Assembly (NCBI GenBank): GCA_017561085.1
Contig: JAFZDQ010000109.1
Span: 1 to 33,017, forward strand
Source: Lachnospiraceae bacterium
GTDB taxonomy: Bacteria > Bacillota > Clostridia > Lachnospirales > Lachnospiraceae
Direction: 5' to 3'
Length of the DNA: 33,017 bases
The position numbers were made by a program, and so were the translations under genes. Of this stretch, positions 10,997-24,524 are shown piece after piece (positions within the stretch are counted from its first letter, which is position 1; each line of letters starts with the position of its first letter). The notes below the pieces were generated by a model. It searched no databases, was not told the DNA's origin, and worked only from the letters and a program-made list of their open reading frames with translations.

Positions 10997-11728
10997 ATGA
11001 AAAAGAAAATTTTGATAGTTGAAGATAATCCGAGATGGTTGAAGCGGATAGAAGATATTGTTTCTTTAGTTTCTTGGGAGACAGAAATATTTGCGGCATC
11101 AGATTTACGGGATGCATATGAATTTGCTATGGGAAATAGCATTGATTTATTTATTGTTGATATTATTCTTAATTCAAATAAACTGGGGGATGTTTCGGGA
11201 ATGGAGTTTGCTGAAAATATAAGGTTACATGCTAAATACCGATATACTCCGATTATTTTTATTACTTCTTTGGAAGATATAAAACTGAGAGCATATAGCA
11301 ATATTCATTGTTACAGTTATATAGAGAAACCGTTTGATGATGAAAAAACCGGAAAGATAATAGAAGAAGCATTAGATATGCCGTTAAAAAAAGAAAATGA
11401 GAGAGAGTACTTTTATTATCGCAAAGATGGTGTGCTATATGGATATTATGCGGACGATATCCTATATTTTAAAAACTGTAACCATAAAATTGTTTTGTAT
11501 AGTATTCATGAAACAGTTACTTTGGGCTATCGCTCGATGAATAGTTTATTGAGCGAGTTAGATACAGGAAAGTTTATTCAGTGTAACCGTAATACAATTA
11601 TTAACCGCAGACATATAGAATATATTGACCCGTTAAACAGATTTGTAAAATTACGAAATGTTGATGAACAGCTGGAAATAGGAATTGTATTAAAAAATAA
11701 ATTTTTAAGCGAGATGCAGGATGATTGA
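10997..11728 (+). CDS. LytTR-family response regulator (AgrA-like), first copy
   Basis: This 243-residue regulator has a receiver domain (about 1-125) with acidic pocket ED at 9-10, phosphoacceptor Asp55 (LFIVDII), the ITSLED switch region and conserved Lys in YIEKPF. A LytTR DNA-binding domain follows (about 135-240, with FIQCNRNTIINRRHIEYID). It overlaps the histidine kinase gene by eight bases, so it is its cognate regulator. It is clearly paralogous to the regulator at 21865: the motifs GDVSG, ITSLED, YIEKPF and VDEQ are shared in the same order. LytTR regulators of this group normally answer AgrC-type kinases in peptide quorum sensing. Target promoters were not identified. Confidence 0.88.
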   Translation: MKKKILIVEDNPRWLKRIEDIVSLVSWETEIFAASDLRDAYEFAMGNSIDLFIVDIILNSNKLGDVSGMEFAENIRLHAKYRYTPIIFITSLEDIKLRAYSNIHCYSYIEKPFDDEKTGKIIEEALDMPLKKENEREYFYYRKDGVLYGYYADDILYFKNCNHKIVLYSIHETVTLGYRSMNSLLSELDTGKFIQCNRNTIINRRHIEYIDPLNRFVKLRNVDEQLEIGIVLKNKFLSEMQDD

Positions 11729-12995
11729 GATAATTTCATGGACGTTAGAATTTTTTGCAGTAATTGGATGCTTGTATAAATTCCAACAGAAAAAATTAAA
11801 AATAGATGTTGCCCTGATTGGATTGTTGATATATGACTTTTTGATTTTTTATGGTATTAATCATTTAAAGTTACCATTAGGGTTATCGATAAGTGTTTAT
11901 TTAGCAATTTATATTTTTTCTATATATAAGTTCAAGAAAAGATACATTACTAATTTAGTAGAATGCTTTTTGGCTTATATATTTTTGGCCATATTGCAAT
12001 TATTATGCTATATTCCGATTGTATTGATAATAAGCGATCCATATAAGGATGTTTTGATTGGTTGTCTGGTAAATGCTTTAAGCTGTTTTATTGTAAATTT
12101 ATTGGGAGATAAATTGAAAATACATAAAGTAAGTAAATATATAGAAAAACATAATTTATTAACCTATGTTTGTTTGAACTGTGTGATTATATATCTGGGA
12201 ATAAATATATATAATCTTCGCATGGTTCATTTCTGGAGTGGGAGGCGATTCTTAGAAATTGCTATTTGGCTGATACTTATCATGATTTTGTGGTTTCAAG
12301 TTCAAAAAAATAAAGATGAAAAGGAAGAAAGGGAACGGCAGTTACAAAATCAGAAAAGGTATGTACAAAATTTTGAAGAGCAGTTACTTGAAGTGAGGTA
12401 TAAGCAACATGATTTAAAGAATCACTTGGCTGCATTTCAAGGTCTGGCAGGCGAGAATGAAGAAAACAAGGAATTAATTTCCATGCAGGAGAATTATTGT
12501 AATTATGTATTGCAAGAAGACGCATATAAGCGTCTTGTAAAAGGTGGCAACCCAATTATTACCGGTTTCTTGAATGAAAAAATAAAAGAAATGGAAGATA
12601 AGAAAATTAGTTTTCAGTATGATTTAGCGTATGTAGAACTTCCAAGACTTGAAATTTATGAGTGGATAGAGGTATTAGGGATTTTGCTGGATAATGCCAT
12701 AGAAGCAGTAGAGCATAGCGCGGAAGAACTAAGAAAGATATCCCTGAAACTGATTCAAGAAAGTGAAATAACACTACTTGGTGTTGCCAATGTAAGCAGA
12801 TATATTGGAAGCGAAGAAAGCAGAGCATTTTTTACAGAAGGATATAGCTCGAAGGGCAGCGGAAGAGGTTTAGGCTTGCCAAAAGTAAAAAAAATCATAC
12901 ATAAAAAAGAAGGTGAAATTTCAGTAAGTAACATAAATAGAGAAAACCATAACTGGTTAGAATTCAGGATATCCATTCGTAATGAGTCAAAATAA
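11721..12995 (+). CDS. AgrC-like sensor histidine kinase, first copy
   Basis: This 424-residue kinase has about six membrane helices in residues 5-205, typical of the AgrC/ComD group. A coiled segment precedes the H-box KQHDLKNHLAA with phosphoacceptor His230. The GHKL ATPase domain has an N-box (GILLDNAIEAV) and a G-box (GRGLGLPKVKK). Length and layout match the second kinase (22586-23860) almost exactly, including the eight-base overlap with its regulator gene. No agrB or convincing agrD lies beside it, so its ligand is unknown: it may sense a peptide made elsewhere, including the peptide from the second module. Confidence 0.87.
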   Translation: MIEIISWTLEFFAVIGCLYKFQQKKLKIDVALIGLLIYDFLIFYGINHLKLPLGLSISVYLAIYIFSIYKFKKRYITNLVECFLAYIFLAILQLLCYIPIVLIISDPYKDVLIGCLVNALSCFIVNLLGDKLKIHKVSKYIEKHNLLTYVCLNCVIIYLGINIYNLRMVHFWSGRRFLEIAIWLILIMILWFQVQKNKDEKEERERQLQNQKRYVQNFEEQLLEVRYKQHDLKNHLAAFQGLAGENEENKELISMQENYCNYVLQEDAYKRLVKGGNPIITGFLNEKIKEMEDKKISFQYDLAYVELPRLEIYEWIEVLGILLDNAIEAVEHSAEELRKISLKLIQESEITLLGVANVSRYIGSEESRAFFTEGYSSKGSGRGLGLPKVKKIIHKKEGEISVSNINRENHNWLEFRISIRNESK

Positions 12996-13173
12996 TACTG
13001 AATGTGGTATATTTTTGAAACTAAATGAAAAAGGAATGTATTTATGGGAGATTTTTGGATTTTGTTTCAAAAATCAGTAACTTAGTAATCATTAATTTAC
13101 AGAACGGCTCTTTTTGTTATATGAAATATTTAGATGAAATTTATTTTGTGTTGTAAAAGGGATAAATATAAAT

Positions 13174-13473
13174 ATGGCAAATGACTTTAAAGAAGCTATG
13201 GGAATGCGTGTGAAGTTACTAAGAAATATAAGAGGATACAGCAGAGAAGAAGTTGCCTTCCAAGCATCAATATCCGTTAAATTTCTGTATGAAGTGGAAA
13301 AAGGTAAAATTGGCATATCAGCCGAAAAGCTGGTGAAGCTGGCAAAGATACTAAATGTCAGTTGTGACTACTTGCTTACAGGTACAGTTCCGAAGATTGC
13401 TAATATTATGGAACAACACGAATTGGAATATATAGAAAAAATTACTTGTAATGCAAATGAAAAATGTAAGTGA
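13174..13473 (+). CDS. XRE-family HTH regulator at right end of island
   Basis: This 99-residue protein has an XRE helix-turn-helix (about 10-65), ending with the NVSCDYLLTG motif usual at the end of Clostridial XRE domains. The similar motif GISADYVLFG occurs in the XRE protein of the second two-component cluster (21446). The upstream ribosome site is weak (AGGGA about 13 bases away), so expression may be low or the start may differ. It follows the first kinase by 178 bases and is the last gene before the right direct repeat. Confidence 0.72.
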   Translation: MANDFKEAMGMRVKLLRNIRGYSREEVAFQASISVKFLYEVEKGKIGISAEKLVKLAKILNVSCDYLLTGTVPKIANIMEQHELEYIEKITCNANEKCK

Positions 13474-21445: not shown

Positions 21446-21865
21446 ATGAAGAAAGCGGAAACTGAAGAAGAAAGAATGCTATCTGCAAATAGATTGCGTA
21501 ATATACGTGAAAATGCCGGTTTGACACAAGAACAGTTTGCAGAAAAGATAGGTATTTCTACATCAGGCTACAAAAAAATCGAACATGGAGTAAATGGTGT
21601 TACTTCAGAATTTTTGCGTTTATTACACGAGAATGTTGGTATTTCGGCAGATTATGTTTTGTTTGGAAAGACACAAAGTGTTGATAATGCCTGGGAAGAA
21701 ATTTCCAATTGCTCAGAAGAAGATAAATTATTTATACTGATGAGATTAACGGCTTATTTAACCATAGCAAAAAAAGGTACATTTCCTTTTATAGAAAAAC
21801 AGACGGAATTGGATAAAGAAATCAGATTATTGATAAAAAAATTTTTGAATGGTGGTAAAGACTGA
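21446..21865 (+). CDS. XRE-family HTH regulator heading the Agr-like operon
   Basis: This 139-residue protein has an XRE DNA-binding domain at about 14-72 (LRNIRENAGLTQEQFAEKIG, ending GISADYVLFG) and a helical C-terminal part (about 80-139). GGGGGA precedes the ATG. Its TGA overlaps the ATG of the response regulator by one base (TGATG), so it is translated with the LytTR regulator and AgrC-like kinase. It probably controls its own operon. A TATAAT lies around 21418-21423, without a clear -35 match. Confidence 0.85.
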   Translation: MKKAETEEERMLSANRLRNIRENAGLTQEQFAEKIGISTSGYKKIEHGVNGVTSEFLRLLHENVGISADYVLFGKTQSVDNAWEEISNCSEEDKLFILMRLTAYLTIAKKGTFPFIEKQTELDKEIRLLIKKFLNGGKD

Positions 21866-22593
21866 TGCCACAGAAAATACTTATACTTGAAGACAATTAT
21901 GTGCATATGCAGGCTTTAACGGAAATTATCCGAAGTTTGCATAGTGATTTGCAAGTGTATTGTGCTTCCGATGTAAAAACAGCGTATCAGCTGGCATTGG
22001 AAAATCACATACACTTGTTTTTAGTTGATATTATATTAGATATTCATAAGCCCGGCGATGTGTCGGGACTTGATTTTGCAAAAGCGATTAGGGGAGTCAC
22101 AAAGTACAAATTTACACCGCTTGTTTTTATCACATCACTGGAAGATCCCAAATTATATTCCTACAGTCAATTGCATTGCTATGGCTATATTGAAAAGCCG
22201 TTTAGTGTCGCTCAGGTGAGGGATACTGTTTTGAGTGCCTTAGAGTATCCGGTGAAAGAAGATGATGATAAGTACGTTTATTTCAGAAAAGAGGGAATCG
22301 TTTATTCTGCCCACGTTAAGGATATCGTTTTTATTGAAAGCAGCAGGAGAAAAATCAGAGTTCATTGTATCAATGATGAATTGGAAATTCCTTATAAAAC
22401 TTGTGAAGAGATGCTGAAGGATTTGGATTCGGACTCTTTTATTCAGTGTAGCAGATATAGCATCATTAATAAAAGATATATCGAGCAGATTGATTATACC
22501 AACCGTTATATAAAGTTAAAATATGTTGATGAACAGGTGGAAATCGGCAGAATTATGCAAAAAGAAGTGAAAAAGAGGTTGGGATATGAATGA
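21865..22593 (+). CDS. agrA-like: LytTR-family response regulator (AgrA-like), second copy
   Basis: This 242-residue regulator has a receiver domain (about 1-122) with acidic pair ED at 9-10, phosphoacceptor Asp55 (LFLVDII), ITSLED and YIEKPF. The LytTR DNA-binding domain (about 132-240) includes FIQCSRYSIINKRYIEQID. It overlaps both the upstream XRE gene (one base) and the downstream kinase gene (eight bases). It pairs with a kinase located beside agrB and agrD, so it is the likely output of peptide sensing. A box reading ACAGTTAAA on the minus strand before agrB (24630-24638) resembles one half of an AgrA site. The paralogue is at 10997. Confidence 0.9.
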   Translation: MPQKILILEDNYVHMQALTEIIRSLHSDLQVYCASDVKTAYQLALENHIHLFLVDIILDIHKPGDVSGLDFAKAIRGVTKYKFTPLVFITSLEDPKLYSYSQLHCYGYIEKPFSVAQVRDTVLSALEYPVKEDDDKYVYFRKEGIVYSAHVKDIVFIESSRRKIRVHCINDELEIPYKTCEEMLKDLDSDSFIQCSRYSIINKRYIEQIDYTNRYIKLKYVDEQVEIGRIMQKEVKKRLGYE

Positions 22594-23860
22594 GGTTATC
22601 GTGATAGTCGTTTTGATTGCGGAGATATTGACGGTTCTTCAGTGTTTGCAGATTGCCTTTATGCAGGAACTGAAGTTTGATAAATACATGGCTGGGATTA
22701 TCGTAGCGGATGTTTTGTTGTATTCGGCGATAACCTTTGGGCTCTTACCGAAGATATGCTCCGTGTTGTTTTATGTACTGGTTTTTGTGTATTGCTATTT
22801 TAAGTTTAAGCAGAAGATGGCAAAGACGGTGATTAGTTTTATTATTGGGGTGTCATTAGGTGGATGTATTGAAGCGATAGTGGCTTGTGCGTTTAGTACA
22901 CTGATTAATTTGTTAGATAAAAACATAATTCTTTTATTAGCGAGTTTTGTTACTTTGGTATTTTCTTATATTGTAAACCGAAGTATATCGATATTAACTA
23001 TCAAGAAAATATATAACGGTAAAAAGATGATTTTGTGTTGTATAACTATTTATGGGTTGGCATATGCAGGGTTGTTGGTTGACTATTATTTGAATCATCA
23101 GATTATTAAGATATATGCAGTATTTATTTTATTGTTTTTAGTAGTAATTGTTTTCTATTTGTATAAACTGGTGCAAGCACAGAAAGAAATTGAGCTAAAG
23201 AACCATGAATTAGAATTGCAAAATATTTATGGCAATATGTATGAAAATCTTTTGTGTGAAGTGAGAAGAAAGCAGCATGATTATAAAAATCAGATAGCAA
23301 CTATATATAGTATGCAAATGGCTACTGACTCAAACAATGATATGTTAGAGATGCAACGGGAGTATATAGATACGCTACATATGAATCAGAAATATGAATC
23401 TGTATTAACCGGTTGTGAGCATCGTATATTAGCAGGATATTTTTATTATCAATTTTTATCATGTGAAGAGAAGAATATTATCGTTGATTATAATATTTTT
23501 GCTAATCAAGTAGAGTGTAGCTTTTCTTTACATGAAATAATTGAAGTATTAGGTATATTAATTGATAATGCATGTGAAAATGTTTTGGAAGAAGAGAAAG
23601 AGGAGAAAAGGATAAGGGTAGAGTTTTTGGAAAGTAATAAATCAATTACATTGGCGGTTTCAAATCCAGCACAGAAATTTTCTTATGCCCAAATTGATAA
23701 ATTGTTTGAGGAAGGTTATAGCAGCAAAGGAAAAAACAGGGGATTAGGGCTAGCCAGATGTTTAGAATTGGTAAAAAAATATAGTGCAGACATGGTTGTA
23801 CAAAATTTTATGTTTAAGGAAACGAATTGGGTAGAATTTAGAATTAATATTAAGAAATGA
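22586..23860 (+). CDS. agrC-like: AgrC-like receptor histidine kinase, second copy
   Basis: This 424-residue sensor has about six membrane helices in residues 3-200, a coiled linker, and H-box KQHDYKNQIAT with phosphoacceptor His231. The GHKL ATPase domain follows, with N-box GILIDNACENV and G-box KNRGLGLARCLE. It overlaps its regulator gene by eight bases. It converges on the agrD-agrB genes across a bidirectional terminator, so it is very probably the receptor of the AgrD-derived peptide. It has the same length as the first kinase (11721-12995) but a diverged membrane region, as expected if the two recognise different ligands. Confidence 0.9.
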   Translation: MNEVIVIVVLIAEILTVLQCLQIAFMQELKFDKYMAGIIVADVLLYSAITFGLLPKICSVLFYVLVFVYCYFKFKQKMAKTVISFIIGVSLGGCIEAIVACAFSTLINLLDKNIILLLASFVTLVFSYIVNRSISILTIKKIYNGKKMILCCITIYGLAYAGLLVDYYLNHQIIKIYAVFILLFLVVIVFYLYKLVQAQKEIELKNHELELQNIYGNMYENLLCEVRRKQHDYKNQIATIYSMQMATDSNNDMLEMQREYIDTLHMNQKYESVLTGCEHRILAGYFYYQFLSCEEKNIIVDYNIFANQVECSFSLHEIIEVLGILIDNACENVLEEEKEEKRIRVEFLESNKSITLAVSNPAQKFSYAQIDKLFEEGYSSKGKNRGLGLARCLELVKKYSADMVVQNFMFKETNWVEFRINIKK

Positions 23861-23864
23861 AAAA

Positions 23865-23896
23865 CTACCGGTTGAGAAATATTCACAAACCGGTAG
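23865..23896. terminator. Bidirectional terminator between kinase and agrD
   Basis: CTACCGGTT (23865-23873) pairs perfectly with AACCGGTAG (23888-23896). T-rich sequence follows on the plus strand and TTTTCATTT on the minus strand, so both convergent operons can stop here. Confidence 0.85.
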
Positions 23897-23902
23897 CCTT
23901 TC

Positions 23903-23986
23903 TTATTCTTCGTCCAAGAGCGGATGCTTTGGTTCACCGAAGAAAATCATGCTGATAATATCAAAACCGATACCCCATTCGAACAT
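23903..23986 (-). CDS. agrD: AgrD-like cyclic autoinducer precursor with serine at the cyclisation site
   Basis: A 27-codon gene too short for routine calling. GGAGGTGA lies just before ATG 23986, and an in-frame TGA sits nine bases upstream of that ATG, so the frame cannot extend. The leader (residues 1-11) is short and hydrophobic. Residues 12-16 read SMIFF and 17-27 read GEPKHPLLDEE. AgrD peptides have a five-residue ring beginning with Cys followed by an acidic Pro-containing tail that AgrB cuts; the EPK.P tail here fits that pattern closely. Cys is absent, so Ser12 would form a lactone ring with Phe16. It overlaps agrB by 26 bases in another frame. Product processing is inferred. Confidence 0.82.
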   Translation of the reverse strand: MFEWGIGFDIISMIFFGEPKHPLLDEE

Positions 23987-24524
23987 AGTTCGTCACCTCC
24001 TTTAAGATATGAGATAGAATTAATTGAGAAATATGCAGTATAATTGTCCAATACCCGATGTACCAAAATGTATGATAAGGACAGATGCATATTATCGCTG
24101 AAAATAGGGTTAGAATGATCGCCGTATTCCGTTTGCTTTTTCGGACTTGGTCCGCAGTAGCCGGCGGTCGGTTAGACGAGGTGACCGGGACCAGATGATA
24201 ACCCAGCATAATATATACTAAACATGTGATACACATAAATATTTTCGTTGGTGTGACATATAGTGCCAGGAAAATGCTTCCGCATAAAAAGGAAAAACTG
24301 ACAATCAGGCAAGTAATATAGTGATTAAAGTGAAGCCCGCCGCCGTGGTTTCGCAGCGGTAACAGAAACAGCAGTGAGATGAAATATTCCGGAACCAGCC
24401 TCAGGAATAAGAAGACTAAAAAGAAGATTAGTATTTTACTGAATTCAGAAAGGAAGCAAAGTCTGTAATACTTTTTTAGTTTCATTTCATATTCGGTGTA
24501 TTCCCGTTTTGTTTTGGTTTTCAT
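23961..24524 (-). CDS. agrB: AgrB-like membrane peptidase processing the autoinducer
   Basis: This 187-residue integral membrane cysteine peptidase cuts and cyclises AgrD. The start is ATG 24524, preceded by GAGGAA; an upstream in-frame ATG at 24707 adds residues unlike the family. The active-site region GGGLHFNHYITC contains His65 and Cys72, seven apart as in known AgrB proteins. About five hydrophobic segments follow the basic N-terminus (KTKTKREYTEYEMKLKKYY). The gene runs opposite to the kinase operon and contains the start of agrD in its 3' end. Expression may be driven by the weak promoter near 24615-24641 with the AgrA-like box. Confidence 0.92.
   Translation of the reverse strand: MKTKTKREYTEYEMKLKKYYRLCFLSEFSKILIFFLVFLFLRLVPEYFISLLFLLPLRNHGGGLHFNHYITCLIVSFSFLCGSIFLALYVTPTKIFMCITCLVYIMLGYHLVPVTSSNRPPATADQVRKSKRNTAIILTLFSAIICICPYHTFWYIGYWTIILHISQLILSHILKEVTNYVRMGYRF

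Follow-up and report, generated by a model that had tools for sequence, protein, structure and literature searches.

The small gene agrD, found at the 3' end of agrB in the window (here, the whole 33,017-nucleotide stretch of Lachnospiraceae DNA that was analysed), probably encodes the signal of an agr-type quorum sensing system, a peptide that AgrB would cut and close into a five-residue lactone through a serine residue. Judged from the sequences compared here, the real oddity of the window AgrD appears to be its short leader and not its serine. L numbers denote the loci with which the window was compared, L208 being the one which carries the orthologue of this agrD.

The agrD gene and its orthologue

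The features of the locus, with positions in the window, are:

21446..21865, plus strand: HTH regulator, 5' of the response regulator (PF12844; 69 of 139 residues identical in the L208 homologue)
21865..22593, plus strand: AgrA-like response regulator with receiver (PF00072) and LytTR (PF04397) domains
22586..23860, plus strand: AgrC-like sensor kinase, 424 aa, hydrophobic stretches followed by a GHKL domain (PF14501, E 7.2e-12), with the motif QHDYKNQ (His231)
23859..23902: hairpin between the convergent units, possibly a shared terminator (-22.8 kcal/mol, z -5.0)
23903..23986, minus strand: agrD, 27 aa, identified from its sequence and a same-length orthologue in L208
AgrD parts: leader 1-11 (MFEWGIGFDII), predicted ring Ser12-Phe16 (SMIFF), tail GEPKHPLLDEE
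23951..23953, minus strand: AGC codon of Ser12, the predicted ring nucleophile by its position five residues before GE (AGT in L208)
23961..24524, minus strand: agrB, 187 aa, membrane peptidase expected to cut and cyclise AgrD (PF04647)
23993..24000, minus strand: ribosome site GGAGGTGA, 5' of the agrD ATG; the TGA within it is the in-frame stop beyond which the leader cannot extend

The window AgrD (MFEWGIGFDIISMIFFGEPKHPLLDEE) contains a single serine (Ser12), no cysteine and no threonine. The agrB stop codon ends at 23961, so that the two genes overlap by 26 nt, in different frames. The first-pass annotation had proposed just such a gene, of 27 codons, with a strong ribosome site, overlapping agrB and free of cysteine, and the sequence bears this out. 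A search of the whole window in six frames for [SC]xxx[hydrophobic]GEx(1-3)P, a permissive form of the tail motif, gave one match, where 100 shuffles of the window by a first-order Markov model averaged 0.37 matches each. At that rate the motif is by itself weak proof, although the sole match coincides with the agrB 3' end and with the strong ribosome site. Better proof comes from the conservation of the gene in L208, which confirms that agrD is real and, together with the shuffles, rules out a chance open reading frame.

L208 (CAMWYM010000005.1, an uncultured Clostridium sp. MAG) was found by profile scan of a genome collection and has an AgrB 54% identical to that of the window. Its AgrD (MSNRGFHFDFISLLFFGEPKHPFLNEE) lies in the same place, is also 27 aa long with no indel, is identical to the window AgrD at 17 of 27 residues and keeps Ser12. 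Comparison of the two agrD genes gave a dN of 0.22 and a dS of 1.6, values which are only indicative because they come from 27 codons with synonymous sites near saturation. The L208 layout is that of the window (HTH, regulator and kinase, then convergent agrD and agrB), with an overlap between agrB and agrD of 8 nt as against 26 nt in the window.

Elsewhere the nearest AgrB was at most 35% identical in 37 genus genomes (genus AgrBs being 26-35% identical to that of the window) and 43% identical in 397 sampled family genomes; this family sample and an order sample of 392 genomes were drawn from larger groups, and part of the matches became loci. The second-nearest AgrB relative, L032, is assigned to the same family as the window, probably Lachnospiraceae, whose members live largely in the gut. 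The genus of the L033 genome added distant AgrBs only, and that of the L032 genome added none. No AgrB relative was obtained from a single-protein scan of genome contigs, from two viral-contig scans or from a plasmid tblastn search; phage sequences yielded a single weak match, the faecal scaffold L241, and the search of solved structures returned two unrelated hits (E 0.068 and 1.5) and no AgrB relative.

AgrB, kinase and regulator

The window AgrB scored 92.4 bits with PF04647 (cut-off 23, E 2.8e-26), the query in this and the other early AgrB searches being 188 aa long, with one extra codon before the ATG, and 187 aa in later ones. The small gene thus adjoins a true AgrB, as had been claimed for it. 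R58, G62, G63, H65 and C72 were invariant in an alignment of 10 AgrBs. In S. aureus AgrB the residues R70, G75, H77 and C84 are needed for AgrD cutting, and R58, G63, H65 and C72 of the window AgrB match their spacing. At E 0.001 the only AgrB match in the genome of the window was this AgrB itself.

The kinase has the multi-TM sensor and GHKL kinase domain expected of an AgrC (PF14501 and hydropathy), and the regulator the receiver and LytTR domains expected of an AgrA (PF00072, PF04397). Scores against curated equivalog models were far lower than their cut-offs, at 85.3 bits against 500 for staphylococcal AgrC (NF046015) and 23.1 bits against 400 for AgrA (NF046049), and the locus is convergent in place of a co-directional agrBDCA order. 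No curated AgrD model matched the window AgrD. TIGR04223 (AgrD family cyclic lactone autoinducer peptide) gave no hit with it and, with the AgrDs of 8 relatives, a single hit of 16.9 bits, below the cut-off of 19; annotation may miss such AgrDs, since this NCBI model reached its cut-off in none of the nine tried. The gene does have the general features of an agrD, namely a small gene at the agrB 3' end, a ring nucleophile and a tail with E and P, and it also has those of a Ser-lactone peptide, with serine at the ring position and no cysteine available, the lactone bond itself being predicted. Its AgrB, its partner genes and the place of its small gene mark the locus as an agr-type system.

In 15 of the 20 regions retrieved, agrBD and the regulator-kinase unit converge; the remaining five comprised two that end near agrB (L083, L090), one with no kinase or regulator match (L089) and two with other layouts (L094, L097). 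Of the other genus genomes, 31 have an AgrB match, and in 25 of these a regulator match was found on the opposite strand within 4 kb downstream of agrB. Compared with that of L208, the window kinase is 45% identical in its sensor half and 49% in its kinase half; with seven others the values are 17-22% and 27-40%, a pattern to be anticipated if sensors track their signals.

The hairpin between the two units was not equalled in stability by any of 200 shuffles; a simple terminator scan did not list it. Upstream of agrB, a scan for the LytTR site pattern found one half-site each in the window and in L208, at different places, and no direct repeats, while promoter-like sites were not in excess (16 found, 18.7 expected). 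These two scans lend no support to autoinduction, as there was neither a site pattern nor an excess.

A second AgrA/AgrC-like pair lies at 10997-13473 of the window (regulator 10997-11728, kinase 11721-12995, followed by an HTH-like gene), and no AgrD-type tail motif was found near it. Since the genome has one AgrB match, this second pair may sense the same peptide or foreign ones.

Serine and cysteine at the predicted ring position

A set of GE-type AgrDs was assembled from small genes near AgrB which had a ribosome site and a GE-P tail, the ring residue being ignored in the choice. The 178 loci (L105 dropped beforehand) contained 59 GE-type AgrDs, 36 candidates without a GE tail and 83 with none, and L208 brought the set to 60. 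The residue five positions before GE was serine in 50 of these 60 AgrDs (window and L208 included), cysteine in 7 and another residue in 3, which look like misregistered tails, two with a cysteine nearby and one with a serine. Within the genus, 29 of 30 GE-type AgrDs including that of the window had serine at this position, the single cysteine case (L024) having close serine relatives in the AgrB tree. Across the 60 AgrDs this position is almost restricted to serine and cysteine and the neighbours on the leader side vary more. A nucleophile with a shared role in ring closure would lead to just such a constraint, on which our case for the lactone mainly rests.

The first-pass annotation had regarded relatives with cysteine, and Ser12 as a lone variant, as grounds for giving up the lactone. 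What was found is serine in L208 and in 28 of the 29 other genus GE-type AgrDs, and with serine in 50 of 60 overall a lone variant is ruled out. Its five-residue ring spacing also agrees with the relatives, which hold serine or cysteine at precisely this position, five before GE. Its view that a lactone would be unusual chemistry for gut Clostridia is not supported, as by sequence serine is the majority state in GE-type AgrDs. A second AgrD type of the family, with the tail QPK.P, mostly has cysteine, with four members lacking it (L053, L171, L185, L196). The genus too has distant AgrBs without a GE-type AgrD, among them L121, which has a QPKRP-type peptide with cysteine.

For the AgrB trees the serine and cysteine sets were collected by tail motif, the search giving 71 hits in the 178 loci. 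A first tree of 69 rows (55 Ser, 14 Cys), which omitted L105 for its masked letters and L107 as a false hit, needed at least 8 changes between serine and cysteine, 6 of them forced by well-supported branches. When the long branches L048, L056, L123, L172 and L192 were excluded and L208 was added (65 rows; 54 Ser, 11 Cys), the fewest changes were 7, again with 6 forced by well-supported branches. Serine and cysteine thus appear to have been swapped repeatedly at this position, which supports a ring-closing role for the residue and a five-residue lactone.

In L035 and L046 a cysteine immediately precedes the ring serine (GCSMLFFGE, GCSILFFGE) and these two are therefore ambiguous, since the ring might close as a thiolactone of six residues or as a lactone of five. 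L081 has a tandem pair of different serine AgrD genes after one agrB (GISFLFFGE, KMSFCFFGE). Among the matches listed from the open-licence literature (titles and the beginnings of abstracts) there was no description of serine AgrDs in Lachnospiraceae.

A short leader

According to passages of PMC12312760, an AgrD typically has 40-50 aa with an amphipathic leader of 24-25 residues, and AIP production in S. aureus depends on the amphipathic leader helix (Zhang et al. 2004, cited in passages of PMC5789755). The window AgrD departs from this expectation, with a leader of 11 residues, at most 13, and a hydrophobic moment of 0.11. The leader had been called shorter than usual, and so it is, the median being 28 in 69 motif-bearing AgrDs and the range 20-36 in those other than the window, L032 and L033. 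L208 also has 11 residues, the one other genome found with a leader of this length and likewise a MAG, and L033 has 16, while in L032 the AgrD core is continuous with a shortened AgrB.

An in-frame TGA lies three codons 5' of the agrD ATG in both the window and L208 and limits the leader to 13 residues whatever the start codon; a longer leader from an alternative start is excluded. By upstream stop, the maximal leader among 68 motif matches was 13 in the window, 20 in L033 and at least 26 in all others, and in L208, determined separately, it was 13. The window leader is neither amphipathic nor basic. Its hydrophobic moment and charge were 0.11 and -2, with 0.10 and 0 in L208 and 0.20 and 0 in L033, whereas three long-leader relatives, measured over residues 1-18, gave 0.26-0.33 and +3.

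In the AgrB tree that includes L208, the window groups with L208, L032 and L033 in a single clade (bootstrap 100, SH-aLRT 98), for which reason the shortening looks inherited within a lineage and not like damage to a single assembly. AgrD might be held at the membrane by the hydrophobic ring segment itself or by docking on newly made AgrB, the latter being conceivable because agrD overlaps agrB. As to the leader protease, the genome has five proteins of PF02517, the Rce1-like group in which we would place MroQ, and these are not specific.

Two further arrangements were seen. At 1468-2055 of L032, which shares its contig with L209, a single unbroken ORF encodes an AgrB lacking its end, followed by the AgrD core, a fusion that may be real or an artefact as the ORF ends 29 nt from the contig end of a MAG. 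In L079 (1291-2148 of the reverse complement) agrD is in frame at the end of agrB with its own AGGAGG and ATG, resembling fsrB/fsrD of Enterococcus.

Proposed mechanism and alternatives

In the mechanism we propose, AgrB would cut AgrD with Cys72 and His65 after Phe16, just ahead of the tail GEPKHPLLDEE, and hold the peptide as a thioester, which the hydroxyl of Ser12 would attack to close, in the manner of Staphylococcus pseudintermedius, a lactone of five residues (Ser-Met-Ile-Phe-Phe). All or part of the 11-residue leader would be removed and the cyclic peptide exported, to be sensed by the convergent AgrC-like kinase, which would then phosphorylate the AgrA-like LytTR regulator. We infer lactone closure, cut sites, export, kinase pairing and autoinduction from the locus and its relatives; the closure onto Phe16 is suggested by the Ser/Cys constraint and its fixed distance to GE, and the pairing with the convergent kinase by the layout.

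The shortened leader might instead mark a decayed agrD, truncated by deletion of the amphipathic leader, whose product is no longer processed. The distance between 11 residues and the median of 28, the requirement for the leader helix in S. aureus (in passages of PMC5789755) and the L032 ORF lacking the AgrB end, by which this branch does rearrange, would all fit with decay. However, we consider decay unlikely. The gene has kept its length of 27 residues in L208, where 17 positions agree and nothing has been inserted or deleted, and the leader of L033 measures 16 residues. In the window the ribosome site is strong and the reading frames of agrB, kinase and regulator are intact, each product matching its family.

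It is also conceivable that AgrB processes AgrD and that Ser12 closes no ring, leaving a linear signal or one cyclised differently, such as head to tail. The lactone of the serine AgrDs is a prediction here, which leaves room for this, but serine and cysteine alternate at one position with the same GE spacing in 57 of 60 AgrDs, and serine lactones are known in S. pseudintermedius and E. faecalis from the passages cited below, so that a signal without the Ser12 ring is improbable. Highly improbable, in our judgement, is a ribosomal shift from agrB into agrD, by which an AgrB-AgrD fusion would anchor the signal and the 27-residue start would be minor. The uninterrupted ORF of L032/L209 and the in-frame fsrD and fsrB of E. 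faecalis (passages of PMC7028047) offer precedents; against them, in the window and in L208 alike, a strong ribosome site of its own precedes the agrD ATG and the agrB stop falls within agrD in a different frame, and the L032 ORF may, as noted, be an assembly or deletion artefact.

We would tentatively suggest, with a little less than even confidence, that this branch of the agr systems of Lachnospiraceae has dispensed with the amphipathic leader. AgrB would then recognise and cyclise a nearly leaderless serine AgrD by core and tail alone, membrane anchoring and an MroQ-type protease would be dispensable, and the GE-type systems of the family would largely make pentapeptide oxo-lactones and not thiolactones.

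Relation to known systems

The AIP ring of S. pseudintermedius has five residues. This size fits the nine-residue peptides given in passages of PMC3673130 and PMC12312760, in which the agr system of S. pseudintermedius/intermedius is described with an AgrD that has serine in place of cysteine at the ring position and a lactone AIP. The window resembles that system in its AgrB and Ser-ring AgrD and differs from the staphylococcal pattern of AgrDs with an amphipathic leader, and of co-directional agrBDCA in S. aureus, in its leader of 11 residues and its convergent kinase and regulator. The first-pass annotation cited the Staphylococcus intermedius group for serine lactones and omitted the GBAP of Enterococcus faecalis, which has a nine-residue ring (passages of PMC12312760). 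GBAP, the fsr peptide, is a Ser3-Met11 lactone. Passages of PMC7028047 presume that an AgrB-type protein makes it, and its origin in a small gene directly downstream of fsrB is a further likeness to the window. In contrast, fsrD is in frame with fsrB within an fsrABDC operon, whereas the window agrD has a predicted five-residue ring, another frame and its own ribosome site. The window AgrD also resembles the long-leader serine AgrDs of the genus and family (L002-L030, L036 and others), which share the SxxxFGE-type core, the AgrB family and, mostly, the convergent layout, and which differ in their leaders of mostly 27-32 residues.

If the proposal is correct, lactone signalling would be common rather than exotic in one large AgrD type of the family. 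The short-leader branch would offer a natural test of whether an amphipathic membrane anchor is indispensable to AgrD, as the rule from S. aureus has it, and its AgrD a minimal substrate for the study of cutting and cyclisation by AgrB, while the repeated natural swaps between serine and cysteine would allow lactone and thiolactone to be compared directly with machinery that is otherwise similar.

A weak match was also observed at 3700-4658 of L241, a human faecal scaffold deposited as phage (MT839371.1, unverified and unannotated), in which an agrB-like stretch is accompanied by the Ser-type AgrD core KMSLLLFGEQPYP.
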